Below are positions 16,441-51,909 of a stretch of 64,000 bases of DNA, piece by piece. The DNA comes from Apoda limacodes (taxonomy: Eukaryota; Arthropoda; Insecta; Lepidoptera; Limacodidae). Every line of letters begins with the position of its first letter. Positions within the stretch are counted from its first letter, which is position 1. The translations under genes and the position numbers were made by a program. The DNA lies in the NCBI GenBank assembly GCA_946406115.1, contig OX291551.1, positions 29,557,381 through 29,621,380 on the forward strand. The letters run 5' to 3'. The notes below the pieces were generated by a model. The model was not told where the DNA came from, did no database searches, and worked only from the letters and a program-made list of their open reading frames with translations.

Positions 16441-16467
16441 TTATATATATATATATATATATATAAC

Positions 16468-29619: not shown

Positions 29620-30780
29620 CGAAGTTTGTACGAGTTCGATTTTTGTTTCCAGAAACTTGAAGCTTAGTACAGAGGTTTCTGCTATGACATACGGAATCAC
29701 TTTAAATGCGGGTGAAAAATGGAATTCCGTCACTTTTGCAGTTAAATGCACAGAACTTAGTATTTCAAATTTAGAATGACCTATTTCACTGTTCATGAAT
29801 CCCCTAAAAGGTTAAATAGGGGATAAAAAATTGTATTAGAATTTCCATATTTTTGTGTCTAAAAACTTTAAATTTTGCACCGAGGATCTTGGTAAAACAT
29901 AGCCAAACAATAATCTAAGAAAGAATTAACAAAAACATCCTCTAAGTGGGTAAAATTGGGGTTAAAGGTTTGAAAAAAAAAAAATCTAGATAGTTGTAAG
30001 TTTGTAAAGAAGAATTTGAGTAGCCTTTATTCGGAAAATTCTAGGGGTTGAAGCAGGGAATAAAAAAAATTATATGAAGTTCTCATATAAATGTATTTAT
30101 GTCTAGAAACTTCAAATTTTGCAATGAAATTGCCGTTATTAGATAGTAAAATTGGGGGTTGGAGGTTTGCGTAGAAATCCGTCAGATTTGAACCTAAAAC
30201 CAAAAAAAAAAGGCGTTAGGTCTTGTAGTTAAATTGAGATTGACTTGTTTCGCGGTTTTTGAATTTAAATATGTTATTTTTTAAGGCTAAACGCATAAAA
30301 ATTGTTGTTTGGCCTCGAGGTACAAAATTAAAGTTTAAATATTTCGGATCGAAAATTTGCTTAATAATTCCAATATTTTTGTAGGTAATGCCATATGGTG
30401 TTAAAACTTTTTTTTTCAAAATTCCACTTAAGATGTGTTTTACTATATTTCAAAGTCGTCCTCTATAGTTCAAAATAGGGGATGGAAATTTCGTAATTTT
30501 CGTGTCTAGAGACTCAAAATTTTGCACAGAAAATTTTGTTGTAATACACGCGAGCAAATTGCAAAATTGATCTTCTATAAGGGGGTACAATAGGGGTTGG
30601 AAGAAGTGTGTATGGAAATTCGTCATTCTTTAAAGCTAAATGCATACATTTTGTATTTGGCCTTTAGGATAAACTGTTTTCGAAAAATTATCCCCTAGTC
30701 AGCAAAATAGGGGATGAAATTTTTTATGACAGTTCCGATATTATAGTAGGTAAACCCGACAACAGTCAAAAGCCGTCTTT
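29620..30780. repeat. degenerate tandem array, period about 200-250 bp
   Basis: A consensus recurs with heavy drift: GTGTCTAGAAACTTCAAATT then TTGCAC-GA (near 29,646, 29,860, 30,100, 30,505), then GTGGGTAAAATTGGGG then TTGGAGGTTTG (near 29,945, 30,150, 30,585), then TAGGGGATGAAAATTT (near 29,815, 30,050, 30,475, 30,705) and TTTTTGTAGGTAAA-CC (near 30,375, 30,740). It ends in a T-run at 30,779-30,790, just before the giant LTR element. No coding content. Confidence 0.7.
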
Positions 30781-30797
30781 TTTTTTTTTTCTTCAAA

Positions 30798-30801
30798 AGT
30801 A
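30798..30801 (+). repeat. left target-site duplication of the giant LTR element
   Basis: AGTA directly before the TGTAG start. The same AGTA directly follows the CTACA end at 51,905. Ty3/gypsy-type integrases make 4-5 bp duplications. Confidence 0.8.
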
Positions 30802-30992
30802 TGTAGTGGATCCAAGCCGTTAATAGAGAATTGTAGTAATCTGGACCCCACGACACGGTGTTGACATGCTAATTTAAGTTTTAAGAGAGCAGGTAAATTA
30901 AAGATGGAATTCATCAATAATAAATATAAATTAGATTAATCAATCAATCAATCGTAATTCATACCAATCGAATAGTCCTAATATATGGATAG

Positions 30993-32701
30993 CACCTACA
31001 GTCTTATCGAAAGTGATGTCGTGAAACGACGTGGCTGCCTGTTACACCGAAGGGTCGACTCAACGAAGATTTATTTTGTCTAGTTTTAAATTGTTTTATT
31101 TAGCTTCGTTTACTTAATTTAGAAAATGGGTCCTAATACCGATTCTTGTTCCAAACAAAAAGGTGATAAAGTAGATATAAATATACCTACTTATTAAATT
31201 TGTAAAGCTATTTGACGAATCACGTGAGAAATTGAACTTAAAGTGATTGCAGTTATGCTGTTTTTTAGCAAACAGTAATCAGATAACAGTCGTTTTGAAG
31301 TATATTATAAGTCAGCTGGAAGGCAACTCTGTAAGAGCTTGCTCCGTAAAAGAATTTCAGACTTGGGAACAATTACGCGAATTTTTGAAAACATAGCTTG
31401 GCGAAAAGAAACACTATAGTCATTTATTAACTGACTAGACTTTGCCAGCGGCTCCGGCCGCCCTAAATTCGGTTATCGGCGTGGGACTCCTTGATTTAAT
31501 CACAATATTAATACTCTGATTTACTCCTTACATAGCCCGCCCTAAATTCGGTTATCGGCGTGGGACTCCTTTATTTAATCACAGTATTAATACTGTGATT
31601 AAATTCTTAATTACTCTAATGAAGTTGGCTATACCAAGCTGTAGCTATAGCTATAGTTCGTTTAAGCTCGGATATAGTTATTCCCGCGGGAACTTTTGCA
31701 TTTTTCGGGATAAAGCCTAGAAAAGAGCCTATGTGTTATTCCGGTACCTGATCTATAGGTGTGCCAAGTTTCATCCCGATCCGTCCAGTGGCTGAAGCGT
31801 TATTCAGTAACAAACACCCATACTTACAAACTTTCGCGTTTATAATATTATACATAGTAGGATTTACAGCAATGCAAGCTTTACCTTTAGATGCTGTAAC
31901 CCAGTTTGGCCTTCGAGTGGAAACCTGTTTGTTGTGAGGCCCCTACCCTATAGCTTAGTAAAAGGCATGTATTATGATGTGATGCTTTATTTACTAGTTA
32001 TATTAGCTGTAGAAAAACATTAACAAAAACAGCAGTTGAAATAATACACGTTGTAGATCTCGTACGCGTTCGTCGTAAGTTAAACGCTGTAAATGAAGAT
32101 AAGTTAAAGGTCGACAATTATAATTTTATTGATTGTTCCCTCCTTTACACCGAATCCATATTATTAGTTCTATCGAGAATTTCATCAACGAAACTAAAGA
32201 TCGATTACCCGGGTATGACTTAGGTGTTATTCGCCATACCCCCTCAGATCCTATCATAAAACCATACCGAGCTTATGATATTTTTTACACGGGAACAATA
32301 GAATGATTCTAATATTTACTTTACGTTCATAAAATAGGTACCTATTTAAAACTCAAACAAAATCGACATTCAAAACAAAATAGGTACCGAATGAATTTAC
32401 GTCATATAAATAAATGTGTTGCTGAAATAATAAATACACATAATATTTACAAAGAGAGATCTCCTAAGTTATATCTACTTATATAACACAAATAAAAGTT
32501 CATGATTTGATGAATTTAAATATATCTCGTGCAAGATACGAAATCTACGTTATCACTTGAAACATTCAATTTTGATTATAAACGATTCAAAATTAAGGAA
32601 AAAGTACATTTATATTAGAATAATGACAGTTTGCTAAAGTTTATTACGCAGTTATACTTAGCTTTGAACCAAAGTCTCCGTACTCTAACACATTACACAC
32701 T
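30993..32701 (+). other. segment present only in the 5' LTR
   Basis: It begins CACCTACAGTC and ends ACACACTA, replaced in the 3' LTR by a single A (46,445 region). It contains the moth interspersed repeat at 31,430-31,865 and AT-rich sequence. I see no terminal repeats or target duplication that would make it one clean insertion. No coding region is supported. Confidence 0.7.
31430..31865 (+). mobile_element. moth interspersed repeat with a tandem 79-bp segment
   Basis: It opens with TTTGCCAGCGGCTCCGGCCG, a diverged form of the 'TTTTGCCCGCGGCTTCGCC' start. It closes with ATCCCGATCCGTCCAGTGGC…AACAAACACC…TATAATATTATACATAGTA, the usual end of this family. A segment reading CCCTAAATTCGGTTATCGGC then GTGGGACTCCTT is doubled (31,460 and 31,539). 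Class uncertain. A relative with its own internal doubling is at 57,947-58,300. Confidence 0.65.
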
Positions 32702-33216
32702 AACGAGATCAATGAAGTATGAAGTAAGTGAGTGGCCCGGATGTCCTCACCGGTCTTCGATTATTATGTTTATACCTACGTCATAAGGCATAAATAATTA
32801 CTCGTTAAATACGACCGATTCGTAAAGTAGCAGATAACCAGGAGGTTAAAGTATATGGAGAATATCGATCGATTATTCTCAGTTAATTGATATAAACGTT
32901 GTAGGGTGCGAGAGGGATGGTAGAGTAGGCTCCGCGCCGCTAACGGGATTCTAGTTGTAAATTTGGAGTAGAGAATGAAAAACCCTTACTTATTAAAAAT
33001 GCAGAGGTAGTTTGTTGACATTGTTGGCTATGTACTCTCTAAGGAAAAGAGATTGCCGATTTCTGCAGAAAATTTAGTGGAGAAAGGGGTTCCTGCCGGG
33101 ATCGGCGTCTTTTAACATGATGTTGTAAAATTTGTGATACCTTGTGGGAGGAAAACCCCGTAATTAGGCTCTGGTCTGATTAGTTAAGAAATCGTTTAAG
33201 ATTAGGGCTAAGGCTA

Positions 33217-33744
33217 GGCAAGCCCTTGTGTAAATCCTGTCCTGTGTATATGTATATCTTATTGACGAAAGCCCTACGCAAGTCCTGAGCAGAGACTCCG
33301 CGCTTTGATCGGATTCGAGGTGACGGGGCATGCTCACATGACTTGGCAGGCAAGCCCTTGTGTAAATCCTATCCTGTGTATATGTATATCTTATTGATGA
33401 AAGCCCTACGCAAGTCCTGAGCAGAGACTCCGCGCTTTGATCGGATTCGAGGTGACGGGGCATGCTCACATGACTTGGCAGGCAAGCCCTTGTGTAAATC
33501 CTGTCCAGTGTATATGTATATCTTATTGACGAAAGCCCTACGCAAGTCCTGAGCAGAGACTCCGCGCTTTGATCGGATTCGAGGTGACGAGGCATGCTCA
33601 CATGACTTGGCAGGCAAGCCCTTGTGTAAATCCTATCCTGTGTATATGTATATCTTATTGATGAAAGCCCTACGCAAGTCCTGAGCAGAGACTCCGCGCT
33701 TTGATCGGATTCGAGGTGACGGGGCATGCTTACATGACTTGGCA
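33217..33744. repeat. 132-bp tandem array in the 5' LTR, four units
   Basis: Units start at 33,217, 33,349, 33,481 and 33,613; a partial fifth starts at 33,745 and then diverges. Each opens GGCAAGCCCTTGTGTAAATC and closes CACATGACTTGGCA. Variants CCTGTCC/CCTATCC and ATTGACG/ATTGATG give the order a-b-c-b'. Because 132 is a multiple of three, two minus-strand frames stay open (187 and 82 codons), repeating a 44-residue unit beginning M-P-R-H-L-E-S-D-Q. I treat the ORF as a by-product of the repeat. Confidence 0.95.
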
Positions 33745-34899
33745 GGCAAGCCCTTGTGTAAAGTCTGTCTTGAGTGTATGTATCTTCATTGATGAAAATT
33801 CTACACGCTTTGGTAGATGCTCATTAGAATGGTACAGTTATGTTACATGTATTTGACGGTTATGTTAATGATATCTCTATATTCACTACTTACTATCTCA
33901 ATCATTTTAGTCCCGATGTCTTGTTGCGTTGCGGAATGGGTGACCCCCAAAGCAAGCAGACCCTTGGTAGATAGAGGTAGGTGAGGACGGGGCAATCACA
34001 GTAAGGGGGTCTTCAAGCGGGGTCTGGCTTGTTATAAGATCAGGGAAGATTGGGGCTTGATGTTAGAGACATGCTAGGTTAACTGCAGGCTTCAGGAATC
34101 TAAGGGTGTGAGGGGGCTGATAAAACCTAGATCTGGGTTGGCTCCAGTTCCACCCTTCACCGGCGTCGAGTAAGGAAGCTGAACTGTTAGATTCCGTTTA
34201 GGTAATGGGCGGCTAAAATTTAATGTGGGATTTTTAACCCAATCTCCTTAAGGAATTCGTATATAAATAAAACCTCCACTCCACCCATTACTGCGACGGA
34301 TAGATTTGGAAAGCTAAGTATTATTGTGTTCATATTTAAATATTTGTTTCCTGTGTAAAAATAAACGTAAACCTCATATGTTTTTCAGGGCCGCGACATT
34401 AATCTAGCGAGTCTAATTTTTAATTAGACTATCTAAGCTTTATTTTATTGTTTTATACTGTTTAATTTATGTTTTGACTGAGCCATTTAAGATAAAGATG
34501 ACAGAACCTCAACCTTGACCAAACTTTATTAACAGGCTATGAGGTGACGTTAGTGGGTCAGGATTTGTTCTATTCTTCACCATGAATCACCTCGTTGAAG
34601 ACGTTTTAGTATAACCATACACAATTCTCTACTAACTGATGAGGCTCTGAATTGTTGTATGGAAAGCCGAAACGTTAAGTTCTAAACACTCAGAAAAGGG
34701 CTAACCCTTACTTGATCTGGCTAATGCGCCAGGTCCTGAGTGTGGATATGTCTTCCTTACAAACCACCTTAATCATACTTATTGTGTGTCAAATTAGGTG
34801 TTCTGTCGCCTTAATTATGATGATGAACAATTTATCACTTAACCATGTGCGTAATCGCACACCTATTTTATTATTTCATGTGAACTTAGCTTGCACGAC

Positions 34900-34985
34900 A
34901 CATGTTTCGGGCGAGTATAGCCTCTCCGGACTAGCGGCTATTTGAACTTAAGGAGCCTCGGGTTCGAACCGACCGATCGTAGGTT
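34900..34985 (+). promoter_or_regulatory. tRNA-like B-box in the LTR
   Basis: CCTCGGGTTCGAACCGACCG contains a perfect RNA polymerase III B-box core (GGTTCGAACC) framed by a short stem (TCGG/CCGA). An imperfect A-box-like word (TAGCCTCTCCGG) lies about 45 bases upstream at 34,918. The same is present in the 3' LTR at about 49,140-49,225. It may be a buried SINE head. Transcription is not demonstrated. Confidence 0.4.
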
Positions 34986-36099
34986 GTATTCAAATAATAA
35001 CGAAATGGTCCCCTTAGTTCCGTAGTTAGTCATAGTAGTAAGGATAAATACATGGTCGCCTGGTTGTTTGCCATCTCCGCAGCGTTATAAATGTAGGAGT
35101 TGGTGGGGAGCACGACTTATCTATCCTAAAGAACAGTTTAAGGCACAGTGTACGAAAGACAAATGTTTATACACCTACTCAATTACTAAATGACAGGAAG
35201 GTGAAGCCACAAGGTAAGCTAGTCTGATTAAACCTATCTACGAGTATGTCGTTATATACCTTCCTTGTTAAAGGTTCCAAGGCGTTAGTCAGATAATAGG
35301 TACGATACATTTGACAACCGCTTAAGGCCGGATGGTACCCTAGGCCCTTAAGGCTATTCAAATTCAAGTTATACATAATTAATTTTCAATATTCATTTTA
35401 GCGATCAGGTAGGAACAGCCTAGGGTATAAGTTAGGCGAGCTTTAGGTTTCGTCTCAATTTTATAGTTTTGATTTTCATAAACTTTATATTCGAGTGTAG
35501 ATAATCGCCATAGGTTGTAAACATAAACCCAATTTTAGATCTAATGGCGAAATTCGTATTGACCGGGTCGCGAGATACTAAAACAAAACCGAACCAACGT
35601 AAATTAGTCGAAGGAAGGTCGAGTAACACGATTAGACTCTGTATCTGCGCAGAAGACTAAAATGTGAACTCTGCGCACCCACGTGACCACGAGACGCCAG
35701 CTGGGCACTTCGATGCACAGGCAAATGTATGAAAAGTCTGACCGTTTAGTCATTAATCGGCTGAAGGGATAATTTGGAGGCGGGCCCATCAATTCTGGAT
35801 AGGACAACTTACGAACCCTTAAGGAATGGTTGTATATGTGAATTTTCCTGGACGATTCCCAGTTAGGGTTACACGTAGATGACCCGGAAACTAGGATTAG
35901 TAGATTTAGATAAGATTCCATATTAAATCGTCTGCCAATAGTGTCCTCTATAAGGCCTTCTCAATATCTCCAAGATTATTAGACACTTAGCTAAGATATC
36001 GATCGACCGAGTAATGCTACGATTATTACACAGATGGCGTGAGCCACAGTGGTAAACAATAATCATGAACGTATGAGGATTTCTAGATACCTACGGTTA

Positions 36100-37090
36100 G
36101 GACTATGTTATAACTTTATTTAAAGGGTAGGCTGTAGATGTATTTCAGGGTTACATTTACTTCTAATCTGTTAGTTCGTCTTTACGGTGATTCTCCCTAT
36201 ATTATTATAATATTATAAGCCAGCTAAGGGAAGCTAGTAAGGATAGTGGTAGGGTTTTTTATATACTTAGATTTTCTATTTGCCTTTGGGGTGGCTTCTC
36301 GAATACCATTGCGATTTTATAATTTCACTTAGGGGGTTGTTAACGGGTTGTCAACGGATTATTTATGCATTTACTAAACCTGTCGGTCTGTCCGTGGGTG
36401 CACTTTTAAGTGTTATTATGACGGTTTTGTAATTTACTTAAGGGTTAGCCAGCGAGTATATTCGTGTGTTATATATATATATTTTCAATCTGTTAGTTCA
36501 TCCGTACGGTGACCTTTCATATTACATTACAGTTTTATAACTTCACTTAAGGGGTCGATAGCGAGTCTGCTAATAATTTAACTATGTACTTAGTAGGTCC
36601 ACTTGTCTCCTTAATGCTCTATATATATATTGTTATAAGTTCATACCTTCACTTAAGGGCAAGCTAGAGAACTGGTGATAGGTTAGCCATGTAGGTTATA
36701 GGTTAGTTAATAGTGAATCTGCTAATAGTTTAAATAAATTATATAAATAGGTACTAAATAGGCCTGTCTGTCTCTTTAATTATTTTGATATATTGTTATA
36801 AGCGCATAACTTTAGTTAAGGGGAAGCCAGTGAGGTTATTAGGAGTTAGTACTTTTATATGCCTAAGGGTTCTCCCTTTAAGGTGAACTTTCTAGATTAT
36901 TATGAGGTTACAATTTTGCTTAAGGGAAAGTTAACGAGTTTATTGATGGACTATTAAGAGTTCTTCCTTAAGGCGATTCTCATACATTACTATAAGATTA
37001 CGACTTCACTTAAGGAGTATGCGGTCTTAGGGTTTCATCCTTATAGTGGGATTTCTTATACTATCATAACGTTATAACTTTGAGGCCTAT
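36100..37090. repeat. degenerate ~110-130-bp subrepeats in the LTR
   Basis: A motif like ATTGTTATAAG…TATAACTTCACTTAAGGGG then AAGCCAGCGAG recurs about nine times (near 36,205, 36,320, 36,430, 36,540, 36,645, 36,800, 36,915, 37,005 and 37,070), with ATCTGTTAGTTC-TC or CTGTC-GTC words between. The identical block is at about 50,341-51,331 in the 3' LTR. It resembles in style, though not clearly in sequence, the arrays at 2.1-4.5 and 29.6-30.8 kb. Confidence 0.7.
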
Positions 37091-37664
37091 CGTGTTCGAG
37101 GGGTAACCGTGTTATTACGAGACATGTTCGGAGTTGTAAGGAGGTAGCTAGGCTCATGAATAGGGTGACTTAGCCTTAGGTACTCCGACTACGTTAGAAT
37201 AATAAACCGCATACATTTTAATCAGGAACTCGGATTTAGTAATTTAAATTCGGGTCTAATGCTAATTAGGACTTAGTGGCTCCGTGGTTAAGGATTACTT
37301 ATAGGCCATTGGCTTTAATGTAGGTAGAACGTAAGATTAGGGTTTTGATTTTATTCTTTCACACCTGGGACTGATTGAATCCATACCTCTTAGGATCTTG
37401 GGTTATTATCGGTCACAACGAGGGGTCCAAACTGTCGATTACGCCATTAGACGATCACAGCCACATAAAATATTAGCTTTCTTTAATAATAACATTAATA
37501 ACGGTTACAAAATATCATTAATGTTTAATAATAATAAAGGCAACAATAATATGTTAGGATTACGTACGTCATCACGTATTCAAATTGGCGAGTACGTCGG
37601 TATACTCCACTTGAGATGTAAAAATAAAACTAATTTTATTTCTGGAGAGGGGGGGGTTTCTACA

Positions 37665-37687
37665 TTATGTGTTGCCGTTATAGTCTA
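37665..37687 (+). other. expected primer-binding-site position, not recognised
   Basis: The 23 bases after the 5' LTR (TTATGTGTTGCCG then TTATAGTCTA) are all that remain before the nested transposon. They do not start with the TGG that pairs with a tRNA CCA end. Either priming is unusual or the site was disrupted. Confidence 0.4.
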
Positions 37688-38160
37688 AGATCCCGCTGCA
37701 GGATTGGTGCGCTCATCGACTTTTTGTTTAAAACCAAATTTTTATGTTTATTTATAATTAAGAGAATATATATTTACTAGGGTGCCTATCAAAATTTGGC
37801 CGCCATTATTTTTAAATAAATTATTTTTAATTGATTTTTGGTAAAAAATTTCGTTTATTTATTTTTTAAATAAAATAACGTCTACATCACGGTAATTAAT
37901 ATGAAGATTCTAAAAAATCACGGTTGCCGTTGCGCACCTGGCCGCACCTCTTTGCAGCCAGGTGTAAACAGGTATGATTTCGATAAATTTATACGTTTAT
38001 AACCTATTTTTATTAATTATATGTCAAATTGAAGCTAATTTTTTTCTATTAATTATCATATAAAGTTGCTTAATTAAATCTGGCCGCAAATAAGGGTTAC
38101 TGGCTGTTAAAGATAATAAATATTTAAGTAGAGTGAAAGAGAGTTAGCGCGTAACATCAT

Positions 38161-38367
38161 TTGTCAGACGAGGACAGCGATTGCCGGCTGTGCGACGCTT
38201 TTAAGCCATTGCGCATGCGTCGAATGTTAGTGTTCTCAACTGAACAGATGCAGCATTTTTATTCTAACATAAAAACCACGCTTTTAAGCAGTCCAAGAGT
38301 TTACGTGCCTTATGTATGGAATCCCAAAGTGTCAAAGTATAAATACCGCAAGATTTTTATTATTTAA
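38161..38367 (+). CDS. small ORF starting inside the left inverted repeat
   Basis: The frame encodes 68 residues beginning M-S-D-E-D-S-D-C-R-L-C-D. Its first 26 or so codons lie in the terminal inverted repeat, so the same start exists in mirror image on the minus strand at the other end. It overlaps the next frame (38,312) by 56 nt in a different phase. It might be the first part of one protein joined by splicing or frameshift to the 135-codon frame, or a chance frame. No domain recognised. Confidence 0.35.
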   Translation: MSDEDSDCRLCDAFKPLRMRRMLVFSTEQMQHFYSNIKTTLLSSPRVYVPYVWNPKVSKYKYRKIFII

Positions 38368-38719
38368 CAAAATGTACGCTTCAAAACAAAATAATGAAAA
38401 ATTTATGAAGAGAATTAAAGGTTTGGACTCGACGCACATTCCACCGTGCTGGAAATCTTTGAAACAAAAATTGTTGCGGACAATCTTTGTTAATTCGATG
38501 TGGTTAAATGCCACTGAACCAGACTGCATCAAATTCAGCCCAGAAAATAATGGCTGGCTGGTACTAGATGGTTTATTAAAACCAACATGGTTCCTGGGAG
38601 ACTTAACTCCAACGGAAGTTAATAGTGTGCTATGTGAATCTACGAACAAAGCTTCCGAAAACGACGATTCTGATATTTGTAGCGATGAAAGTGATAGCTC
38701 CGATGATTCAGATTTTTAA
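38312..38719 (+). CDS. 135-residue protein of the nested transposon, function unknown
   Basis: The predicted protein has a basic first half. Its middle reads I-P-P-C-W-K-S-L-K-Q-K-L-L-R-T-I-F-V-N-S-M-W (given here as residues about 44-65), then a G-W-L-V-L-D-G…P-T-W-F-L-G-D segment, and it ends in a strongly acidic Asp/Ser-rich tail (D-D-S-D-I-C-S-D-E-S-D-S-S-D-D-S). The spacing 'P-P-C…R-T/A-x-Y/F…W…G-W…W-F/D-G' reminds me of the C-terminal module of orphan proteins scattered in invertebrate genomes, but this is recollection without a search. An AT-rich 3' region with AATAAA signals (about 38,818) follows. The start is uncertain. Codon composition and position in the element make it more likely real than chance. 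Confidence 0.55.
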   Translation: MYGIPKCQSINTARFLLFNKMYASKQNNEKFMKRIKGLDSTHIPPCWKSLKQKLLRTIFVNSMWLNATEPDCIKFSPENNGWLVLDGLLKPTWFLGDLTPTEVNSVLCESTNKASENDDSDICSDESDSSDDSDF

Positions 38720-39824
38720 ATAAGAGTTACGGAAATATTAGAATTATAAGATAATTTTTTTAATTTTTTAATTTGCTTAATTGTTTAATTAATATGTAAC
38801 AGACAATTAAATACTTGAATAAAATCTAATAAAATTTTTAAATAATACTTTCGCAATAAAATTTTCTTTTACTTAAGTCACCTTGGTTTAATTTTTTTTA
38901 TTTTTTAAATTAATATTAAATATCGACGTTCTAATTAGCAAATTTTCTAACTCCATTTTAGAGAAACTTTTATTTGTACGAAAAAAAGAATTTCTTCAAA
39001 ATTTATTATCATTTTAAAAAACTATTTAATATCTAATAGAGATATAATATTTAAGTTTGAATCATTCAAATAATTTGTAATTGGATTATTGCTTCATCAA
39101 AATGTTAAAAAAATCACCCTTTAAAAAATAAGAGACAAATTCCTAATTAGACCGTCGATATATCAAATCAATATTAATTTTTGTTGCAATTTTTAAATTT
39201 GTCATTTTCAAAAAAATTACATATTTTTTGGAGTATTTATTATAATTCGTCTCTATTATTACTCACCGGTGGTTGAGAACACTAACGTTCGACGCATGCG
39301 CAATGGCTTAAAAGCGTCGCACAGCCGGCAATCGCTGTCCTCGTCTGACAAATGATGTTACGCGCTAACTCTCTTTCACTCTACTTAAATATTTATTATC
39401 TTTAACAGCCAGTAACCCTTATTTGCGGCCAGATTTAATTAAGCAACTTTATATGATAATTAATAGAAAAAAATTAGCTTCAATTTGACATATAATTAAT
39501 AAAAATAGGTTATAAACGTATAAATTTATCGAAATCATACCTGTTTACACCTGGCTGCAAAGAGGTGCGGCCAGGTGCGCAACGGCAACCGTGATTTTTT
39601 AGAATCTTCATATTAATTACCGTGATGTAGACGTTATTTTATTTAAAAAATAAATAAACGAAATTTTTTACCAAAAATCAATTAAAAATAATTTATTTAA
39701 AAATAATGGCGGCCAAATTTTGATAGGCACCCTAGTAAATATATATTCTCTTAATTATAAATAAACATAAAAATTTGGTTTTAAACAAAAAGTCGATGAG
39801 CGCACCAATCCTGCAGCGGGATCT

Positions 39825-42472
39825 CGTACTATTACCAGGATAGGATATAGAACTAAAATAGGCTTGTAAAAGCCTACATTTTGTTGTCGTAAAACCGATG
39901 GGAGGTCATTAAAATGGATTTGAGTTGGTGACTGGTGTGACAGAATAGAACCAATATCCAAGATATAAATCTTGTTTAGAAGGCATTTTGTAGTTGTTTG
40001 TTACTTAAGCTTAGTTATAGACACATACTTTAATATAGCATATAAGGGAATTGTAGGCCAAGTTTAGAATAAAACCATGTTAAATTAGTGTAAAAGAATG
40101 TTTTTTTTATTTTAGTATAGGGTATTGTCATAACACAGGTTTAAGAAAATGTCTAAAACTAGATTCGAATAAATTTATTAATGGATAGCATATTCAATTA
40201 TTATGGACCTTAGCTTAATGTTGTGAGTACGATTTGAATGAGATTGTGAGTGCTGGTTTGTACGTATACCTACATGTGTGTAAGTAGGTGTGGACGGGTG
40301 TATAATTTCGCAGTAGTATTATGGACAGATTTCGGAACTTTGTGATGGCTAATTGAAAGAGAGGCGGAGCTAGTCGTATTGTATTGACTGTGGTGGTCGA
40401 CCGCGAGGGGTATTACTGTATAGACATAGGTTAGATATCGGTATATTTGGCGTGGCCTTAATGAATTTTCTATATGCGTAGAATTATTTGCCAGAAGGGG
40501 ACACTGTGAAATAAGAGTCTAATATGCTCGGGGAGGGAAAGGACATAAGAAAATAACGAGCATTTAAGAGGGCCCAACGCGCATATACCTTTGTTTTATG
40601 GGTGTGGAGCGTGAGTCGATATTGTTGGTTTCAAATAGAGCTCATTTTCCAGTGGCGTAAATATACTATACGTAGACATACCACTTAGCGTAAAAGGGGG
40701 GGGGGGGGAATTATTTAATTACAGTTACATCGCATGCGATATAAAATTTAAATTGCAGCAATTTTCTAGCTTTGAAGTTACTTAACACGTCATGAAATAA
40801 ATCGTGTTCTCGCTACTTGTTGATAGTGAGTTACGAATTAAAAATAGAAGGACGAGAACTTCGGCCGTAATTTTCTTAAAAAAAAAAAAAAAATGTTTTG
40901 GACAGAAACCGTAAACCAAATACAGTAATCTGCTAGTCAAAGAATGTAGAAGGCCACGTTATTTTCCGGTTTGGAACTTACCATAGGACAGCGAAATCGA
41001 TTTTAAAACCGAGCAGAAACCTGTACATTGAAGTAGGGTGTAGCCTTAATGTATCACTTTACTATAGAAGAGTTAGAGCGAGTTCATTTATGATTAAGGA
41101 ATGAATTGAGAGGCGGGATAGCGAGCATTTGGAATGTTAATGCAGAAGTAAGGTCATAAAGTCACTAAGATATTAGCTGAAGTAGGCCCGCATCCATATC
41201 AGTTCTTTAATGTTATACTACTTAAGTAGCGCTGACTTAGTAAGTTCGGATCATCCCCAGATATTAGACATATCTGTGTATATGTATAATTATCGGATTA
41301 TAGGTTTCAGTTAAAAGGTTGTTCCAAAGTACGAACATCTAATAACTGTTTCACTTGACGGTGACGTCGGTTGAGCCCTTAGACCAGGTGAACTTCCTCC
41401 AACGGGAAGATTCATGACTGGTAGAAGGTAATCTTAAACACGTACACGTTAAAGTAAACAGTAGATGTTAAAACGACTATATGTACTTTGTGAGTTGTTA
41501 GTTTAGTAATATAATTTTGTAAAAGGAAAGTTTATAACAAATAATATAAACTAAAGAAGAAAAAAGGTGCCGGCTCGAGCGGGGATTTGAACTCGGAGTT
41601 TCTCGAGGTCTTAGCGCGAGCGTGAGGTGTTTGGCCAACGGAGCTGTCTGGGGTGATTCTGTGCGATCGAATGTAGACGTTAGGTTTAGATTATCTTTTA
41701 TAGATTCGTTGCTACCGTTCACGGGCTATTAGAATCAAATTTTAGGATACTTTTAGCTCATGCTTTTGCTTGCCAAATAATATTACGTTTTGATTGTCGA
41801 TAAATATTTTATTACTAGGCGGACCGGTAATGTCAACCGGTTTTAATATATTGTGGTGCCATTTATGAAAGTGATAGATTGACAGTGTGGCGATACTCAG
41901 GTGTAAACGAGAAGTGCACTTACATCGTATATAAATATATACATCTCTGGTTGGGAAGTTTAAAGTACTAAAAGGTAAGATAGGATAATGGCAGGTATTA
42001 GGTGATGTTCAGGTCGGCTATGCCTGGTAGCGTGTTCCTTTTTGAAGTAAATAGGTTATTGTTAATAGGTATTATCTGTTCAAAGGATTCTGTCGAGTAG
42101 GCGATAGGTAGCAATTGAGAAATGAGGTTGATGTCTGAGATTAAAACCATTGGCGTAGGTCAGGGACTGGTTTTGTTAGTGTAGTCATGTTAAGGGCGGT
42201 TAAAATTAAAATGTACATGACGAGAGGGGAGGGTCCCACAGGATAAATGGTTGAGTTGTTAGGGGAGGGGTCAACATAATAAATGTTTATTAAACTGCAT
42301 TAACGTTTATTCAGAATTAGGATTCGCATGAAATATATATATAAATAAATTAGGTTCAGTGTAAGATGGGAAGTGAGCTAGACCGTGGATAGATACTATG
42401 TAGATTTGAAACTAAGGCGAAATTATTAAACCCAGCCGAGTAGGACAAGGTTATTATTTAATTTGGAACGAG
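39825..42472 (+). other. interior of the giant element, non-coding, left part
   Basis: There is no open frame longer than about 74 codons and no retroelement motif. It includes a run of 13 G (40,696-40,708), a run of 16 A (40,878-40,893) and a tRNA-like SINE head at 41,570-41,690. The plus strand is mostly richer in G than C. Confidence 0.55.
41570..41690 (-). mobile_element. tRNA-like head, probable SINE fragment
   Basis: Reverse-complemented, the patch reads ACAGCTCCGTTGGCCAAAC, then ACCTCACGCTCGCGCTAAGA, then CCGAGTTCAAATCCCCG and GCTCGAGCCGGCACC. GAGTTCAAATCCC is a close B-box match, and CCGTTGGCCAAA sits where a tRNA D-arm would. Acceptor and T-stem pairing fails, so it is not a working tRNA gene. 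SINEs with this head are familiar from moths. A pyrimidine tract follows on that strand. Confidence 0.55.
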
Positions 42473-43010
42473 GAATTGAAATGATTTTGGATTTTTATAC
42501 ATGTGTGAGTTGCAGGGGGTCGTAATGTTTCGACAGGTACGATCCCTGAGTGACCGCGGGCGGTGCATGTCTATATGTGTGTATACATAGCAGTATGCAT
42601 ACATGTGTATATGTGTCGAAGTTGAGGTCGGGCCCTGCCTTAATGGTGGGAGAGTCAGGTCCTTAACTGAAAGAGCGAAAAGGGTTATGCTGGGGATGTG
42701 TTTAAATCGTCGCGAGTAAAGATTGTAAGTTGTTAGGGCCTGAATTGAAATGATTTTGGATTTTTATACATGGTTTGTGTAACCCCTGAGATTTTTGCCG
42801 TGTGAGTTGCAGGGGGTCGTAATGTTTCGGCAGGTACGATCCCTGAGTGACCGCGGGCGGTGCATGTCTATATGTGTGTATACATAGCAGTATGCATACA
42901 TGTGTATATGTGTCGAAGTTGAGGTCGGGCCCTGCCTTAATGGTGGGAGAGTCAGGTCCTTAACTGAAGAACCAAAAGGTGTTATGCTGGAGATGTGTTT
43001 AATTTGCGCG
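42473..43010 (+). repeat. 269-bp tandem duplication
   Basis: Two copies start at 42,473 and 42,742 with GAATTGAAATGATTTTGG, and share GAGTTGCAGGGGGTCGTAAT, CGATCCCTGAGTGACCGCGG and a palindromic-looking TATGTGTGTATACATAGCAG then TATGCATACATGTG. The second copy has about 27 bp extra near 42,773. A diverged third relative is at 43,078-43,250 and a shorter one at 45,070-45,170. Confidence 0.9.
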
Positions 43011-43289
43011 GAAAAAAAAAATTTTAAAAGGAAAATAATAAAAAAAAAATGGTGAGTCGTTAGATTAGACAAATTTGCCTTGTGGGATTCAGGGGGGTGT
43101 TAACGTTTCGGCCACTGCTGTTTTTGATGGGCCGCTTTCGGTGTATGTTTGTATATGTGTTTGGAGGTATGCGTACATATGTATATGTCGATAATGGAAG
43201 TCAGGCTTAACGTGAATGGTGGGTGAGTAGTTAAGGGGAGGAGGGGGATATGCGGAGTATGGGTTTAGACCGCTCTAACATCAACATTA

Positions 43290-45060
43290 GTATACAAGGT
43301 TCGAAATCTTCCAACCGGTTCTGATCGTTACTGATAACAATTTTTATGTTAGCTTCTGAATGTCATCAAATGGAAAACTCAATTGGTTGTATCCAAACGT
43401 CGTCGTCATACTCAGATTACTATATCTATCATAATTACCTACGGCCTATAAGGACAAACTCAACTGTTTGTTCCGGATTATCATCAAATGGACAAACTTA
43501 ACTGTTTGCTTCCGAATATCGTGAAATGAACAAACTCAACTGTTTGCGTCCAAAAATCATCGCCATATTGGAACTACTATATCTATCATAATAAGCCTAG
43601 GTTGAGTGAGGCCCTTGGTCCTTAATCGAAGCATATACATTATAATGAGCCTAGATTGAGTGAGGCCCTTGGTCCTTAACCGAAGCTTATCCGTCATAGC
43701 TATCTACCACTAATAGAGGACAAACTCAACTGTGTGTTCCGGATTATCATCAAATGGACAAACTTAACTGTTTGCTTCCGAATATCGAGAAATGAACAAA
43801 CTCAACTGTTTGCGTCCAAACATCATCGCCACCTTTTAGCTACTATATCTATCATAATTACCTACAGCTAATAGAGGACAAACTCAACTGTTTGTTCCTG
43901 AATATCATCAAAAGGGACAAACTCAAATGGTTGCTCCCGAATATCATCAAATGGGCAACCCAACTGTTTGCGTCCAAACATCTTCGCCATATTCAAACTA
44001 CTATATCTATCACAATTACCTACGGCTAAAAAAAAAATGTACAAACTCAACTGTTTGCTTCCGAACGTCATCAAATGAACAAACCCAATTTTTGGCGTCC
44101 AAACATCATCGCCATATTCAAACTACTATATCTATCACAATTACCTACGGCTAAAAAATGGACAAACTCAACTGTTTGCTTCCGAACGTCATCAAATGAA
44201 CAAACCCAATTTTTACATCATCGCCATATTCAGACTACAATATCTATCACAATTACCTACGGCTAAAAATGGACAAACTCAACTGTTTGCTTCCGAATGT
44301 CATCAAATGGACAAACTCAACTGTTTGTTTCCAAACGTCATCAAATGGACAAACTCAACTGTTTGCGTTCAAATATAATCGCCATATTAAAACTACTATA
44401 TCTATCATGACGAGCCGAGGTTGAGTGAGGCCCTTGGTCCTTAATCGAAGCATATACATTATAACGAGCCTAGATTGAGTGAGGCCCTTGGTCCTTAACC
44501 GAAGCATATCCGTCATGATTACCTACGACTAATAATGGACAAACTCAACTGTTTGTTTCCAAACGTCATTGCCATATTCCAACTACTATATATATCATAA
44601 TTACCTACATCTAATAATGGACAAACTGAACTGTTTGTTTCCAAACATCGTCGACATATTCAAACTACTATATCTATCATAATTACCTACATCTAAGAAT
44701 GGACAAACTCAACTGTTTGTTTTCAAACGTCGTCGCCATATTCAAACTACTATATCTATCATAATTACCTACATCTAATAATGAACAAACTTAACTGTTT
44801 GTTTCCAAACATCATCGCCATATTTAAACTACTATAACTATCCCGACAAGCCGAGATTGAGAGAGGCCTTTGGTCCTTAATCGAAGCATATTCATCATAA
44901 CAAGCCTAGATTAAGTGAGGCCCTTGGTCCTTAACCGAAGCATTTCCGTCGCACCCGTCCTGATTATCTACGACTAATAATGGAAAACCTCAACTGTTTG
45001 CTTCCAATCATATTTCCCTTCTTCGATCTACTATATTCTTCATAACTATCCATTATATCT
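43290..45060 (+). repeat. composite minisatellite in the giant element's interior
   Basis: Two unit types alternate. One is CTACTATATCTATCATAATT then ACCTACGGCTAATAATGG. The other is ACAAACTCAACTGTTTGCTT then CCGAATATCATCAAATGG. The second repeats within units as well as between them (more than a dozen copies of CTCAACTGTTTG). A third block, GAGTGAGGCCCTTGGTCCTT then AATCGAAGCATAT, occurs in pairs near 43,600-43,690, 44,410-44,510 and 44,850-44,945. ACTGTTTG-type words give short open frames (43,868-44,378) that are not genes. Confidence 0.9.
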
Positions 45061-46250
45061 GGTGTTTCCTATCGTAGCGTTGCAGGGGACTGACTTTGTT
45101 TCGACAGGGTGGGTCCCTGAGTAGTCGCTGGCTGAGGTTGAGTGAGGCCAGTGGTCCTTAACTGAAGCTGTGTTTGTCATAGTTATCTGCTGCATATAGA
45201 TCTCCGTTTGAGTAGAGCACGATCTTAAGCACTATAATTTCTTTTTAATCTCTTATGTACTATTTCAAGTAATTATTATGACGTGTCATTCATTATTATT
45301 AGGAGGCTCTTAGGTGATGATCGTAGCTTATTGGGTACAGCCCTTTAAACCAGTTTAGATTAGTGAGGAACATGATGAGACAACTAGTACCACGCTAAAC
45401 CAGGTTTGATTAGTCATTGTCTTGGTACGGAACTATAGTATGAGATTCATTAATATCTAAATGGAAGCAGACCTTGAACGATGAGATAACCTTGGAGTTG
45501 AGGGTGATTATAGGATGGGAGATGTCCATTAAGTTGATTAGTTAGAAATCAGTAGTGTCGAGAAGCTTTAGGCTAGTTTTAATAGGGTGAACGTATGATT
45601 ATATTTTAGGGTGAACTAAGTTGATTTTACGACGGGGGAATGGATGGAAAACCGTCGATAATAAGCGAGAGGGAATTGGAGGAAATGAAAGATAAGGCTA
45701 GGACTGAATGGGTAAAGTGCAGTTAAAGGAAGGGTGATCCTTATGAGAAGGCACATTGAAAGGAACAATTCCGGTCAGGGAATTTGATGAAAGCGCGTAG
45801 AACTGATAACTCAACTCTCGGAGGAGGTTACGAGAAATTTCGATGCGATTTCTTTTTTACTGACGGCGGGGCTAGGATTAAGGTTAGGATAATATTAGGT
45901 TTATTAGGTTCAGGTTAATTAGGTTTAGGTAAACTTGGGGTTTATAGGGTTTAGGTTAACATAAGGTTTATTAGGTTTAGGTGAACATGAGGATCTTTAG
46001 GTTTAGGTTACGGATATGTTTAGGAGGTCTAGGTTAACATGAGGGTTGTTAAATTTAGGTTAACGTAGGGATTTTTAAGTTAAGGTTAGCGTTATGGTTG
46101 AATGAAGGTCAGAATAAGTCTCGAGTAATTTATATGTTATTATTGAAGTAGGTTCGAGTTTTAAGTCGAGGTACTAAAACCTTTGGGTATAGATCCAGTA
46201 GTTAGTTAAGAAACAAGTCACAACTGATAGGTGTACATTTATGACTTGTT
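45061..46250 (+). other. interior of the giant element, non-coding, right part
   Basis: It is strongly purine/G-biased on the plus strand. A TTTAGG-rich tract at 45,870-46,090 is listed separately. No coding motif. It ends at the polypurine tract. Confidence 0.55.
45870..46090 (+). repeat. TTAGG-like degenerate tract
   Basis: Words TTAGGTTTAGGTTAAC, TTAGGTTTAGGTAAAC, TTAGGTTTAGGTGAAC and TTAGGTTTAGGTTACG recur every 30-40 bp. They contain the insect telomere unit TTAGG, but spacing and composition are irregular, so this is a decayed ~35-bp minisatellite and not a true telomeric array. Confidence 0.65.
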
Positions 46251-46259
46251 GGGGAGGAT
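46251..46259 (+). other. polypurine tract of the giant element
   Basis: GGGGAGGAT directly abuts the TGTAG start of the 3' LTR. A purine run at this spot primes plus-strand DNA synthesis in LTR retrotransposons. Confidence 0.75.
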
Positions 46260-46688
46260 TGTAGTGGATCCAAGCCGTTAATAGAGAATTGTAGTAATCT
46301 GGACCCCACGACACGGTGTTGACATGCTAATTTAAGTTTTAAGAGAGCAGGTAAATTAAAGATGGAATTCATCAATAATAAATATAAATTAGATTAATCA
46401 CCTTCTTAATTCATACCAATCGAATACTCCTAATATATGGATAGAAACGAGATCAATGAAGTATGAAGTAAGTGAGTGGCCCGGATGTCCTCACCGGTCT
46501 TCGATTATTATGTTTATACCTACGTCATAAGGCATAAATAATTACTCGTTAAATACGACCGATTCGTAAAGTAGCAGATAACCAGGAGGTTAAAGTATAT
46601 GGAGAATATCGATCGATTATTCTCAGTTAATTGATATAAACGTTGTAGGGTGCGAGAGGGATGGTAGAGTAGGCTCCGCGCCGCTAAC

Positions 46689-47327
46689 GACGAGCATTCA
46701 TTGCGTCAACTAATCGAAGCCGTATAATCGAGCCACGGAAAAGCGGAGAAGCTAGTTCAACGGATAAAGAATTTAGTAGAATAGGTTTGCGCCTTCGATA
46801 GAATTATACGATTATTACTATAAAGTAACTGGCCACTAAATGCAAACCACGTGCGTACACGTGGAAGTAAAATAAAGAAGAAATTAACTGGCGCCACAAT
46901 TTCTAGACACGCTATGTGTTCAGGCCGCGTCTATAGTGGGGAAGGGGAAAACGGTTATAAGCGATAGGCGTCAGTTGCGGCACCCTTTTTCACTGTCGTC
47001 GTGCCGAGAGGCTGGCCGTGCTCGAGATTCCTGAGGAAGCGGGAAGGACAGGACGCACAAAGATTTGAAGAAATTTAATACCGGCGCCGTGCACGTTTCG
47101 CCTACATCAAATATCAGTAAGTGTCTTTTGTGAGAACTGAGGCTAGCAATGTCAACTTATTATTGATGGGTTTGTACTATGGGGCTTTGTGAGGGACTTC
47201 CTTTATACGATGGCGTAAGGACTGTGTAAGGGACCGTGTAAGATGCCACCTTGGTTAAAGTGAAGGGTTGGTTGGGGAAAATTGAAAGTGGTTGACTTTT
47301 TGGTTGGGATTTAGTCCGGGATTCTAG
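46689..47327 (+). promoter_or_regulatory. block present only in the 3' LTR; possible promoter region
   Basis: It is GC-richer than its surroundings. It holds a palindrome CCACGTGCGTACACGTGG (two CACGTG E-boxes) near 46,846, TATA-like words (GTCTATAGTGG, GTTATAAGCG) near 46,930-46,955 and a TCAGT-type arthropod initiator (GCGTCAGTTGCGG) near 46,968, in that order. If this is the LTR promoter, the 5' LTR has lost it and the copy may be silent. The assignment is inference from motif order only. Confidence 0.4.
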
Positions 47328-47589
47328 TTGTAAATTTGGAGTAGAGAATGAAAAACCCTTACTTATTAAAAATGCAGAGGTAGTTTGTTGACATTGTTGG
47401 CTATGTTCTCTCTAAGGAAAAGAGATTGCCGATTTCTGCAGAAAATTTAGTGGAGAAAGGGGTTCCTGCCGGGATCGGCGTCTTTTAACATGATGTTGTA
47501 AAATTTGTGATACCTTGTGGGAGGAAAACCCCGTAATTAGGCTCTGGTCTGATTAGTTAAGAAATCGTTTAAGATTAGGGCTAAGGCTA

Positions 47590-47985
47590 GGCAAGCCCTT
47601 GTGTAAATCCTGTCCTGTGTATATGTATATCTTATTGACGAAAGCCCTACGCAAGTCCTGAGCAGAGACTCCGCGCTTTGATCGGATTCGAGGTGACGGG
47701 GCATGCTCACATGACTTGGCAGGCAAGCCCTTGTGTAAATCCTGTCCAGTGTATATGTATATCTTATTGACGAAAGCCCTACGCAAGTCCTGAGCAGAGA
47801 CTCCGCGCTTTGATCGGATTCGAGGTGACGAGGCATGCTCACATGACTTGTCAGGCAAGCCCTTGTGTAAATCCTATCCTGTGTATATGTATATCTTATT
47901 GATGAAAGCCCTACGCAAGTCCTGAGCAGAGACTCCGCGCTTTGATCGGATTCGAGGTGACGGGGCATGCTTACATGACTTGGCA
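47590..47985. repeat. 132-bp tandem array in the 3' LTR, three units
   Basis: Units start at 47,590, 47,722 and 47,854, with the partial unit at 47,986. By variant content they correspond to units a, c and b' of the 5' LTR, so exactly one unit (b) was lost here or gained there, as in unequal exchange or replication slippage. Confidence 0.95.
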
Positions 47986-50900
47986 GGCAAGCCCTTGTGT
48001 AAAGTCTGTCTTGAGTGTATGTATCTTCATTGATGAAAATTCTACACGCTTTGGTAGATGCTCATTAGAATGGTACAGTTATGTTACATGTATTTGACGG
48101 TTATGTTAATGATATCTCTATATTCACTACTTACTATCTCAATCATTTTAGTCCCGATGTCTTGTTGCGTTGCGGAATGGGTGACCCCCAAAGCAAGCAG
48201 ACCCTTGGTAGATAGAGGTAGGTGAGGACGGGGCAATCACAGTAAGGGGGTCTTCAAGCGGGGTCTGGCTTGTTATAAGATCAGGGAAGATTGGGGCTTG
48301 ATGTTAGAGACATGCTAGGTTAACTGCAGGCTTCAGGAATCTAAGGGTGTGAGGGGGCTGATAAAACCTAGATCTGGGTTGGCTCCAGTTCCACCCTTCA
48401 CCGGCGTCGAGTAAGGAAGCTGAACTGTTAGATTCCGTTTAGGTAATGGGCGGCTAAAATTTAATGTGGGATTTTTAACCCAATCTCCTTAAGGAATTCG
48501 TATAAAAATAAAACCTCCACTCCACCCATTACTGCGACGGATAGATTTGGAAAGCTAAGTATTATTGTGTTCATATTTAAATATTTGTTTCCTGTGTAAA
48601 AATAAACGTAAACCTCATATGTTTTTCAGGGCCGCGACATTAATCTAGCGAGTCTAATTTTTAATTAGACTATCTAAGCTTTATTTTATTGTTTTATACT
48701 GTTTAATTTATGTTTTGACTGAGCCATTTAAGATAAAGATGACAGAACCTCAACCTTGACCAAACTTTATTAACAGGCTATGAGGTGACGTTAGTGGGTC
48801 AGGATTTGTTCTATTGTTCACCATGAATCACCTCGTTGAAGACGTTTTAGTATAACCATACACAATTCTCTACTAACTGATGAGGCTCTGAATTGTTGTA
48901 TGGAAAGCCGAAACGTTAAGTTCTAAACACTCAGAAAAGGGCTAACCCTTACTTGATCTGGCTAATGCGCCAGGTCCTGAGTGTGGATATGTCTTCCTTA
49001 CAAACCACCTTAATCATACTTATTGTGTGTCAAATTAGGTGTTCTGTCGCCTTAATTATGATGATGAACAATTTATCACTTAACCATGTGCGTAATCGCA
49101 CACCTATTTTATTATTTCATGTGAACTTAGCTTGCACGACACATGTTTCGGGCGAGTATAGCCTCTCCGGACTAGCGGCTATTTGAACTTAAGGAGCCTC
49201 GGGTTCGAACCGACCGATCGTAGGTTGTATTCAAATAATAACGAAATGGTCCCCTTAGTTCCGTAGTTAGTCATAGTAGTAAGGATAAATACATGGTCGC
49301 CTGGTTGTTTGCCATCTCCGCAGCGTTATAAATGTAGGAGTTGGTGGGGAGCACGACTTATCTATCCTAAAGAACAGTTTAAGGCACAGTGTACGAAAGA
49401 CAAATGTTTATACACCTACTCAATTACTAAATGACAGGAAGGTGAAGCCACAAGGTAAGCTAGTCTGATTAAACCTATCTACGAGTATGTCGTTATATAC
49501 CTTCCTTGTTAAAGGTTCCAAGGCGTTAGTCAGATAATAGGTACGATACATTTGACAACCGCTTAAGGCCGGATGGTACCCTAGGCCCTTAAGGCTATTC
49601 AAATTCAAGTTATACATAATTAATTTTCAATATTCATTTTAGCGATCAGGTAGGAACAGCCTAGGGTATAAGTTAGGCGAGCTTTAGGTTTCGTCTCAAT
49701 TTTATAGTTTTGATTTTCATAAACTTTATATTCGAGTGTAGATAATCGCCATAGGTTGTAAACATAAACCCAATTTTAGATCTAATGGCGAAATTCGTAT
49801 TGACCGGGTCGCGAGATACTAAAACAAAACCGAACCAACGTAAATTAGTCGAAGGAAGGTCGAGTAACACGATTAGACTCTGTATCTGCGCAGAAGACTA
49901 AAATGTGAACTCTGCGCACCCACGTGACCACGAGACGCCAGCTGGGCACTTCGATGCACAGGCAAATGTATGAAAAGTCTGACCGTTTAGTCATTAATCG
50001 GCTGAAGGGATAATTTGGAGGCGGGCCCATCAATTCTGGATAGGACAACTTACGAACCCTTAAGGAATGGTTGTATATGTGAATTTTCCTGGACGATTCC
50101 CAGTTAGGGTTACACGTAGATGACCCGGAAACTAGGATTAGTAGATTTAGATAAGATTCCATATTAAATCGTCTGCCAATAGTGTCCTCTATAAGGCCTT
50201 CTCAATATCTCCAAGATTATTAGACACTTAGCTAAGATATCGATCGACCGAGTAATGCTACGATTATTACACAGATGGCGTGAGCCACAGTGGTAAACAA
50301 TAATCATGAACGTATGAGGATTTCTAGATACCTACGGTTAGGACTATGTTATAACTTTATTTAAAGGGTAGGCTGTAGATGTATTTCAGGGTTACATTTA
50401 CTTCTAATCTGTTAGTTCGTCTTTACGGTGATTCTCCCTATATTATTATAATATTATAAGCCAGCTAAGGGAAGCTAGTAAGGATAGTGGTAGGGTTTTT
50501 TATATACTTAGATTTTCTATTTGCCTTTGGGGTGGCTTCTCGAATACCATTGCGATTTTATAATTTCACTTAGGGGGTTGTTAACGGGTTGTCAACGGAT
50601 TATTTATGCATTTACTAAACCTGTCGGTCTGTCCGTGGGTGCACTTTTAAGTGTTATTATGACGGTTTTGTAATTTACTTAAGGGTTAGCCAGCGAGTAT
50701 ATTCGTGTGTTATATATATATATTTTCAATCTGTTAGTTCATCCGTACGGTGACCTTTCATATTACATTACAGTTTTATAACTTCACTTAAGGGGTCGAT
50801 AGCGAGTCTGCTAATAATTTAACTATGTACTTAGTAGGTCCACTTGTCTCCTTAATGCTCTATATATATATTGTTATAAGTTCATACCTTCACTTAAGGG

Positions 50901-51905
50901 CAAGCTAGAGAACTGGTGATAGGTTAGCCATGTAGGTTATAGGTTAGTTAATAGTGAATCTGCTAATAGTTTAAATAAATTATATAAATAGGTACTAAAT
51001 AGGCCTGTCTGTCTCTTTAATTATTTTGATATATTGTTATAAGCGCATAACTTTAGTTAAGGGGAAGCCAGTGAGGTTATTAGGAGTTAGTACTTTTATA
51101 TGCCTAAGGGTTCTCCCTTTAAGGTGAACTTTCTAGATTATTATGAGGTTACAATTTTGCTTAAGGGAAAGTTAACGAGTTTATTGATGGACTATTAAGA
51201 GTTCTTCCTTAAGGCGATTCTCATACATTACTATAAGATTACGACTTCACTTAAGGAGTATGCGGTCTTAGGGTTTCATCCTTATAGTGGGATTTCTTAT
51301 ACTATCATAACGTTATAACTTTGAGGCCTATCGTGTTCGAGGGGTAACCGTGTTATTACGAGACATGTTCGGAGTTGTAAGGAGGTAGCTAGGCTCATGA
51401 ATAGGGTGACTTAGCCTTAGGTACTCCGACTACGTTAGAATAATAAACCGCATACATTTTAATCAGGAACTCGGATTTAGTAATTTAAATTCGGGTCTAA
51501 TGCTAATTAGGACTTAGTGGCTCCGTGGTTAAGGATTACTTATAGGCCATTAGCTTTAATGTAGGTAGAACGTAAGATTAGGGTTTTGATTTTATTCTTT
51601 CACACCTGGGACTGATTGAATCCATACCTCTTAGGATCTTGGGTTATTATCGGTCACAACGAGGGGTCCAAATTGTCGATTACGCCATTAGACGATCACA
51701 GCCAAATAAAATATTAGCTTTCTTTAATAATAACATTAATAACGGTTACAAAATATCATTAATGTTTAATAATAATAAAGGCAACAATAATATGTTAGGA
51801 TTACGTACGTCATCACGTATTCAAATTGGCGAGTACGTCGGTATACTCCACTTGAGATGTAAAAATAAAACTAATTTTATTTCTGGAGAGGGGGGGGTTT
51901 CTACA

Positions 51906-51909
51906 AGTA
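51906..51909 (+). repeat. right target-site duplication of the giant LTR element
   Basis: AGTA, partner of 30,798-30,801. Confidence 0.8.

Follow-up and report, generated by a model that had tools for sequence, protein, structure and literature searches.

The length of LTR retrotransposons has traditionally been regarded as capped at about 10 kb by the need to transcribe the full length, by the processivity of reverse transcriptase and by what a particle can package, and the sequence between the LTRs rarely exceeds 10 kb (PMC6431247, in the portion drawn on here). According to the same portion, known giants now move the limit for RNA-based elements to about 30-40 kb; Ogre of legumes has LTRs of 1.9-6.5 kb, and Burro of planarians exceeds 30 kb in total (PMC6431247). 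In the LARDs of barley and its relatives, the LTRs are around 4.4 kb long and the central domains around 3.5 kb, according to the part of PMC3532108 used here. In an insect, the honey bee, a LARD class of 301 elements, 16,406 fragments and 348 full-length copies is given in the excerpted text of PMC4028053. The portions of PMC3212995 and PMC5006616 considered contain no long-LTR precedent, and among the titles and abstract openings covered by our literature search, whose scope excluded most subscription journals, none describes the element reported here. This element, a 21,104-bp sequence (AGTA copies excluded) within a 64,000-nucleotide stretch of the Apoda limacodes genome (the window), is likely a non-autonomous LTR retrotransposon that was copied via RNA by the proteins of another element.

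The sequence is bounded by two direct repeats, a 5' LTR of 6,863 bp (LTR1; 30802-37664, plus strand) and a 3' LTR of 5,646 bp (LTR2; 46260-51905, plus strand), both of which run from TGTAG to CTACA and thereby show the TG...CA ends of an integrated LTR retrotransposon. Between them lies an internal region of 8,595 bp (37665-46259, plus strand), which yielded no retroelement protein domain. The similarity of the two LTRs ends exactly at these termini, the adjoining bases being different, and both outer flanks carry AGTA (30798-30801 and 51906-51909, read directly), the short target-site duplication of such an element. These coordinates bear out the 21-kb element with 5.6-6.9 kb LTRs proposed in an earlier note on this DNA, and sequence and alignment likewise confirm the matched ends, the exact stop of similarity and the AGTA flanks claimed there. 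Among 200,000 random boundary pairs drawn within the window, a 4-bp match occurred at a rate of 0.0052 (0.5%) and 5-bp inverted ends starting with TG at a rate of 4e-5 (0.004%); both were combined in none of the 200,000 pairs, a zero that sets only an upper bound, with the product of the two rates at about 2e-7. Matched ends and a 4-bp duplication thus strongly support the integration of a single LTR-bounded element.

Alignment of LTR1 with LTR2 reveals 13 differences in 5,017 aligned positions. When six of these are dropped together with their stretches (four in a microsatellite, one in the tandem array and one at a junction), 7 in about 4,546 positions are left, resulting in a divergence of about 0.15-0.26%. 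Such high identity is consistent with recent movement, which the earlier note had taken it to imply; the identity itself fits, but gene conversion between the LTRs is an alternative source of it. The length difference between the LTRs is made up of a 1.7-kb block confined to LTR1, a 0.63-kb block confined to LTR2 and one 132-bp unit. Hereby, the unit belongs to a tandem array with 4.4 copies in LTR1 (33216-33797, plus strand) and 3.4 copies in LTR2 (47589-48038). In the alignment, the LTR1-only block spans 1,708 bp (30993-32700) and the LTR2-only block 629 bp (46690-47318, or equally well 46688-47316 owing to a 2-bp microhomology). Since no target duplication flanks either block, later deletion is favored for both: the 1,708-bp block was probably deleted from LTR2, and the 629-bp block is compatible with a deletion in LTR1. 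Judged from these blocks, the ancestral LTR may have measured about 7.4 kb.

Outside the nested element described below and the tandem array, the longest reading frames of the element have lengths that also arise in 200 mononucleotide shuffles. None of the 20 ORFs of at least 75 aa located in 30600-46500 contains a retroelement domain when scanned with Pfam at E <= 0.1; hereby, 17 of the 20 gave no match and three gave weak matches. The same library recognized reverse transcriptase, RNase H or integrase in six of nine ORFs from other elements in the window. A 218-aa minus-strand ORF in the 132-bp array was rejected as a gene (0 of 7,992 scored candidates at E <= 0.001); its five Pfam matches are weak, FokI_D1 lying just over the cut-off (25.5 versus 25 bits) with no single stretch passing. 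Likewise rejected were the matches of ORF 31978-32220 to Herpes_UL35 (E 0.006) and of ORF 33372-33632 to Peptidase_S74 (E 0.024), both under the cut-off. We read the weak Pfam matches of the three ORFs as repeat artefacts or chance. A tblastn comparison of eight retroelement ORFs encoded in the window with the element yielded a best value of only E = 0.021. By shuffles, Pfam and tblastn alike, gag/pol coding capacity is thus absent, as in LARDs. Rfam gave no match at gathering scores within the window, its best in 30600-52000 being a single match with E = 0.098 in a palindromic stretch of LTR1.

The internal region harbors a nested DNA-transposon-like element of about 2.1 kb (37688-39824) with 553-bp terminal inverted repeats that differ by one mismatch; no target duplication was seen around it. 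This inverted-repeat transposon had been overlooked in the earlier note. It contains a 143-aa stop-to-stop ORF (38288-38716, plus strand), for which a protein-collection search returned 30 of 44 candidates at E <= 0.001, with relatives labelled Parnassius, Eumeta, Spodoptera, Brassicogethes, Henosepilachna and Bactrocera; neither a Pfam family nor, at E <= 1, a relative in PDB was found for it. Of the two ORFs submitted to the protein-collection search, only this one has relatives. The lack of coding capacity claimed earlier thus holds for the LTR element itself, as judged from the 20 ORFs scanned with Pfam, but not for the nested element, whose ORF has insect relatives. Without the nested element the internal region measures about 6.5 kb. 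A minisatellite-like array with units near 38, 82, 125 and 158 bp occupies 43347-45048; the G-over-C skew of the internal region reaches 0.43 per kb in parts and is reversed (about -0.3) over this array.

An LTR retrotransposon canonically carries a primer-binding site with TGG just inside its 5' LTR. Here, the 40 bases following LTR1 (37665-37704) contain no TGG, and the first one beyond LTR1, at 37705, lies within the nested element; the usual primer-binding site is therefore missing. A non-canonical or self-priming site is possible. Self-priming in the style of Tf1 was considered, but when the first 30 internal bases were compared with LTR1, the longest exact reverse-complement match covered 9 bases, which is unconvincing. 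At the other end, a short purine tract, GGGGAGGA (46251-46258, plus strand), followed by one T and then LTR2, represents a candidate polypurine tract. The purine tract noted earlier before the second repeat is thus present, though short: 148 of 8,575 internal positions (1.7%) equal GGGGAGGA in having an 8-purine run ending 0-2 nt upstream, which makes it weak evidence. A minus-strand orientation was rejected, with no TGG in the bases adjoining LTR2 and no purine run in those adjoining LTR1. ARAGORN found no tRNA within the window.

A Gypsy-like pol relic at 12167-15242 of the window was considered as a donor and rejected, since a comparison with the element gave no common DNA at E <= 0.001. 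No LTR pair surrounds this relic in 9500-17500, where direct repeats stay at chance level (E 0.19 or worse). One of its ORFs aligns with both LTRs over a weak stretch of 23% identity (E 0.021 and 0.12), which we take as chance. In public contig collections, which do not comprise insect genomes as such, exact matches to a 16-base pattern turned up in three viral contigs, and one bacterial contig matched an 18-base pattern; these matches stop at 17-18 bases and were dismissed as chance, and the array pattern had no match in viral contigs. The element itself was seen as one copy, at a single locus.

Since the element has no recognizable genes for its movement, helper-dependent copying is likely. 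Transcription would start in LTR1 and end in LTR2, whereupon the capsid of a donor would package the RNA, its reverse transcriptase would copy it and its integrase would insert the copy by means of a 4-bp staggered cut. Integrases of the Ty3/gypsy type often make such a cut. A 4-bp duplication is also on record for the insect non-autonomous LTR family PbTRIM (PMC3532108, in the portion used). After insertion, LTR1 and LTR2 probably lost different blocks. The nested inverted-repeat transposon would have entered the internal region at some point, before or after that insertion.

A tandem segmental duplication of several kb, whose two copies now lie 8.6 kb apart, would accommodate the single locus, the missing canonical primer-binding site and the lack of a recognizable gene in the repeats. 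We regard it as unlikely, because 5-bp inverted TG..CA ends and a 4-bp duplication mark the very borders of the repeats, a combination that none of the random pairs reproduced. Less probable still is a decayed autonomous, gypsy-like element whose genes were deleted and replaced by insertions after landing. At least one nested transposon is indeed present, indels in both LTRs indicate that blocks come and go, and the 23%-identity match of the Gypsy ORF (E 0.021) points in the same direction; however, the low LTR divergence leaves little time to erase all coding traces, no domain remnants were found among the 20 ORFs scanned with Pfam, and about 6.5 kb of internal sequence lies outside the nested element. 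An assembly artefact, for instance two misjoined haplotypes or repeat copies, is very improbable: long near-identical repeats do assemble poorly and the locus was judged from the assembled sequence, but such an error would not produce a duplicated 4 bp beside matched TG..CA ends, and the repeat copies differ by the 1.7- and 0.63-kb blocks.

If copying by a helper is the correct reading, the locus represents a recent insertion of 21-23 kb, of which about 60% is LTR and which lacks genes of its own, and a helper particle and enzyme handled an RNA of about 13-16 kb. This size would correspond to the internal region plus about one LTR, the lower figure applying if the nested element came later. 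The internal 8.6 kb stays below the 10 kb that is rarely exceeded between LTRs; it is the LTR itself that is unusual. Such an element would provide a concrete LARD-like case for study in an insect, and its lack of the usual primer site raises a question of priming that can be put to the test. A wider reading, in which an insect family of recently active non-coding LTR elements had ancestral LTRs of about 7.4 kb, exceeding the 6.5 kb of Ogre, and primed reverse transcription without the usual TGG-type tRNA site, is possible but doubtful.

Among known systems, the gypsy-like Ogre and Burro resemble the element in giant size; as described in the portion of PMC6431247 used, gag and pol domains are present in Burro and coding ORFs in Ogre, whereas neither Pfam nor tblastn revealed a gag-pol coding internal region here. 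PbTRIM of the harvester ant, in its partial description, measures 480-781 bp in total and has a leucine-tRNA primer site, in contrast to 21 kb and no such site. The honey bee LARD class shares the character of non-coding LTR derivatives in an insect; in the excerpted text of PMC4028053 it is an automatic REPET class, which its authors did not inspect in detail unless a member carried another element, and LTR sizes of the order of 5.6-6.9 kb do not appear there. Compared to the LARDs as partially described for barley and relatives, the element has longer LTRs (5.6-6.9 kb) and a larger internal region (8.6 kb, or about 6.5 kb minus the nested element), resides in an insect, is known from one copy and lacks the canonical primer-binding site. 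The likeness to plant LARDs drawn in the earlier note is supported for the non-coding character (20 ORFs in Pfam; shuffles) and is likely for the non-autonomous one, but because no canonical TGG site follows LTR1 we do not file the element as a confirmed LARD. By analogy, a LARD-like identity nevertheless appears plausible, the common features being long LTRs, a large non-coding internal region and enzymes presumably supplied in trans.

Self-comparison of the window yields one dominant direct repeat, formed by the 5' LTR (LTR1, 30802-37664) and the 3' LTR (LTR2, 46260-51905) of the 21-kb element, both of which start with TGTAGTGG and end with TTTCTACA. The bases immediately preceding and following the LTR1 copy differ from those at the LTR2 copy, so that the similarity stops at these ends, and AGTA directly adjoins both outer ends of the element. 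Among 200,000 random boundary pairs taken from the window, a 4-bp match was found in 0.52% and 5-bp inverted ends starting with TG in 0.004%; both signs together occurred in 0/200,000, the product of the two rates being ~2e-7. The matched ends and outer AGTA reported in an earlier note are borne out, with exact borders, and constitute the footprint expected from integrase-type insertion of one unit. The giant non-coding LTR element is thus judged a real and probably recent insertion.

In a MAFFT alignment, LTR1 and LTR2 show 13 mismatches in 5,017 aligned bases. For a second count, six mismatches were left out together with their stretches, i.e. four in a TCAATC microsatellite (of which three probably stem from the alignment), a single mismatch within the tandem array and another at a junction, which yields 7 in ~4,546 (0.15%). 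The copies additionally differ by gaps of 1,708, 629, 132 and 6 bp. Neither large block (1.7 kb, 0.63 kb) shows a target duplication at its flanks; the sequence at the 629-bp junction is consistent with deletion at a 2-bp microhomology, and that at the 1.7-kb junction with a deletion involving one filler base. Provided that the blocks were deleted and not inserted, adding the 1.7-kb block to LTR2, or the 0.63-kb block to LTR1, would give an original LTR of 7.36-7.49 kb.

The proposed lack of coding capacity holds for the LTR element. Longest stop-to-stop frames, compared with 200 mononucleotide shuffles, reach 81 aa in 30802-33166 (shuffle median 84, 95% limit 119), 118 aa in 33821-37664 (98 and 137) and 111 aa in 39836-46259 (105 and 141), and frames in the block confined to LTR2 measure at most 61 aa. 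Beyond the shuffle range are a 218-aa ORF in the 132-bp tandem array within LTR1 and a 143-aa ORF (95% limit for the whole internal region: 141) that belongs to a separate, nested element. A Pfam scan covered every ORF of at least 75 aa in 30600-46500 (20 of 20), leaving out LTR2, a near copy of LTR1, and the LTR2-only block; none of the 20 carries a retroelement domain, 17 being without match at E <= 0.1 and three having weak matches. As positive control, RT, RNase H or integrase was detected with the same library in 6/9 ORFs of the Gypsy-like relic and LINEs of the window.

The relic is a damaged pol at 12167-15242 (+) whose RT, RNase H and integrase each lie on an open stretch of their own, and no LTR pair is detectable for it. 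A LINE at 23981-28736 (-) contains two long open frames that overlap (690 and 930 aa), of which the second has endonuclease and RT domains and one relative named jockey-like; for its ORF at 23981-26770, the named relatives that come closest belong to Tuta absoluta (55% identity) and Eumeta japonica (48%), while the top match overall reaches 61%. Two copies of a LINE piece (56039-56757 and 58570-59297) lie in opposite orientation and are 97% identical by self-comparison.

The internal region (37665-46259) holds the nested inverted-repeat element (37688-39824), which starts after the first 23 bases past LTR1 and has 553-bp arms with one mismatch. Near-palindromic sequences, GTTATAGT and ACTATTAC, flank it, and the bases around it reveal no target duplication. 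Of 44 candidate proteins, 30 match the 143-aa ORF at E <= 0.001, and its family is present in moths or butterflies, beetles and a fly; named relatives include Parnassius apollo (best-scoring), Eumeta japonica, Spodoptera frugiperda, two beetles and one fruit fly. With these relatives and those of the LINE ORF, a lepidopteran host is likely. Pfam gave no family for the 143-aa ORF, and a scan of seven relatives left four without any match and gave the other three only weak ones below cut-offs. The rest of the internal region is minisatellite-rich, with G skew in places strong (0.30-0.43 per kb) and of opposite sign across the 43.3-45.0 kb minisatellite; strong skew is not unique to the element, since -0.44 occurs near 10.5 kb, outside it. 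By eye, 41563-41650 (-) looks like a tRNA, with a B-box-like GAGTTCAAATCC followed by a T run, and is perhaps the head of a SINE; an Rfam search found no tRNA there at E <= 1. Degenerate repeats of the form TTAGGTTTAGGTTAACATGAGGG at 45880-46100 resemble, without equalling, the insect telomere unit TTAGG.

Regarding priming, the purine tract noted before the second repeat is indeed present before LTR2, yet it is short and not statistically strong. As tRNAs terminate in CCA, a canonical primer site begins with TGG. No TGG occurs between LTR1 and 37705. The nested insertion does not explain this, since 23 bases remain ahead of it, whereas the site normally starts only a few bases from the LTR. 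The missing TGG may reflect non-canonical priming, a later change where LTR1 meets the internal region, or a misreading of the element.

The likeness to plant LARDs (large retrotransposon derivatives) stands in part: the presumed way of moving fits, whereas the canonical primer site was looked for and not found; for this reason, and with the element known here from one locus, we withhold formal membership. An insect LARD label is not wholly new, given the 301 LARDs of a honey bee annotation (PMC4028053). LTRs >3 kb are called infrequent (PMC3485330), and LTR1, at 6.86 kb, exceeds the figures for LTRs of Ogre (1.9-6.5 kb; PMC6431247) and LARDs (~4.4 kb; PMC3532108). No longer LTR appeared among the literature matches listed, a search with most subscription journals outside it, and no record is claimed. 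The 8.6-kb internal region lies within the usual range, as content between two LTRs is rarely above 10 kb according to a review (PMC6431247).
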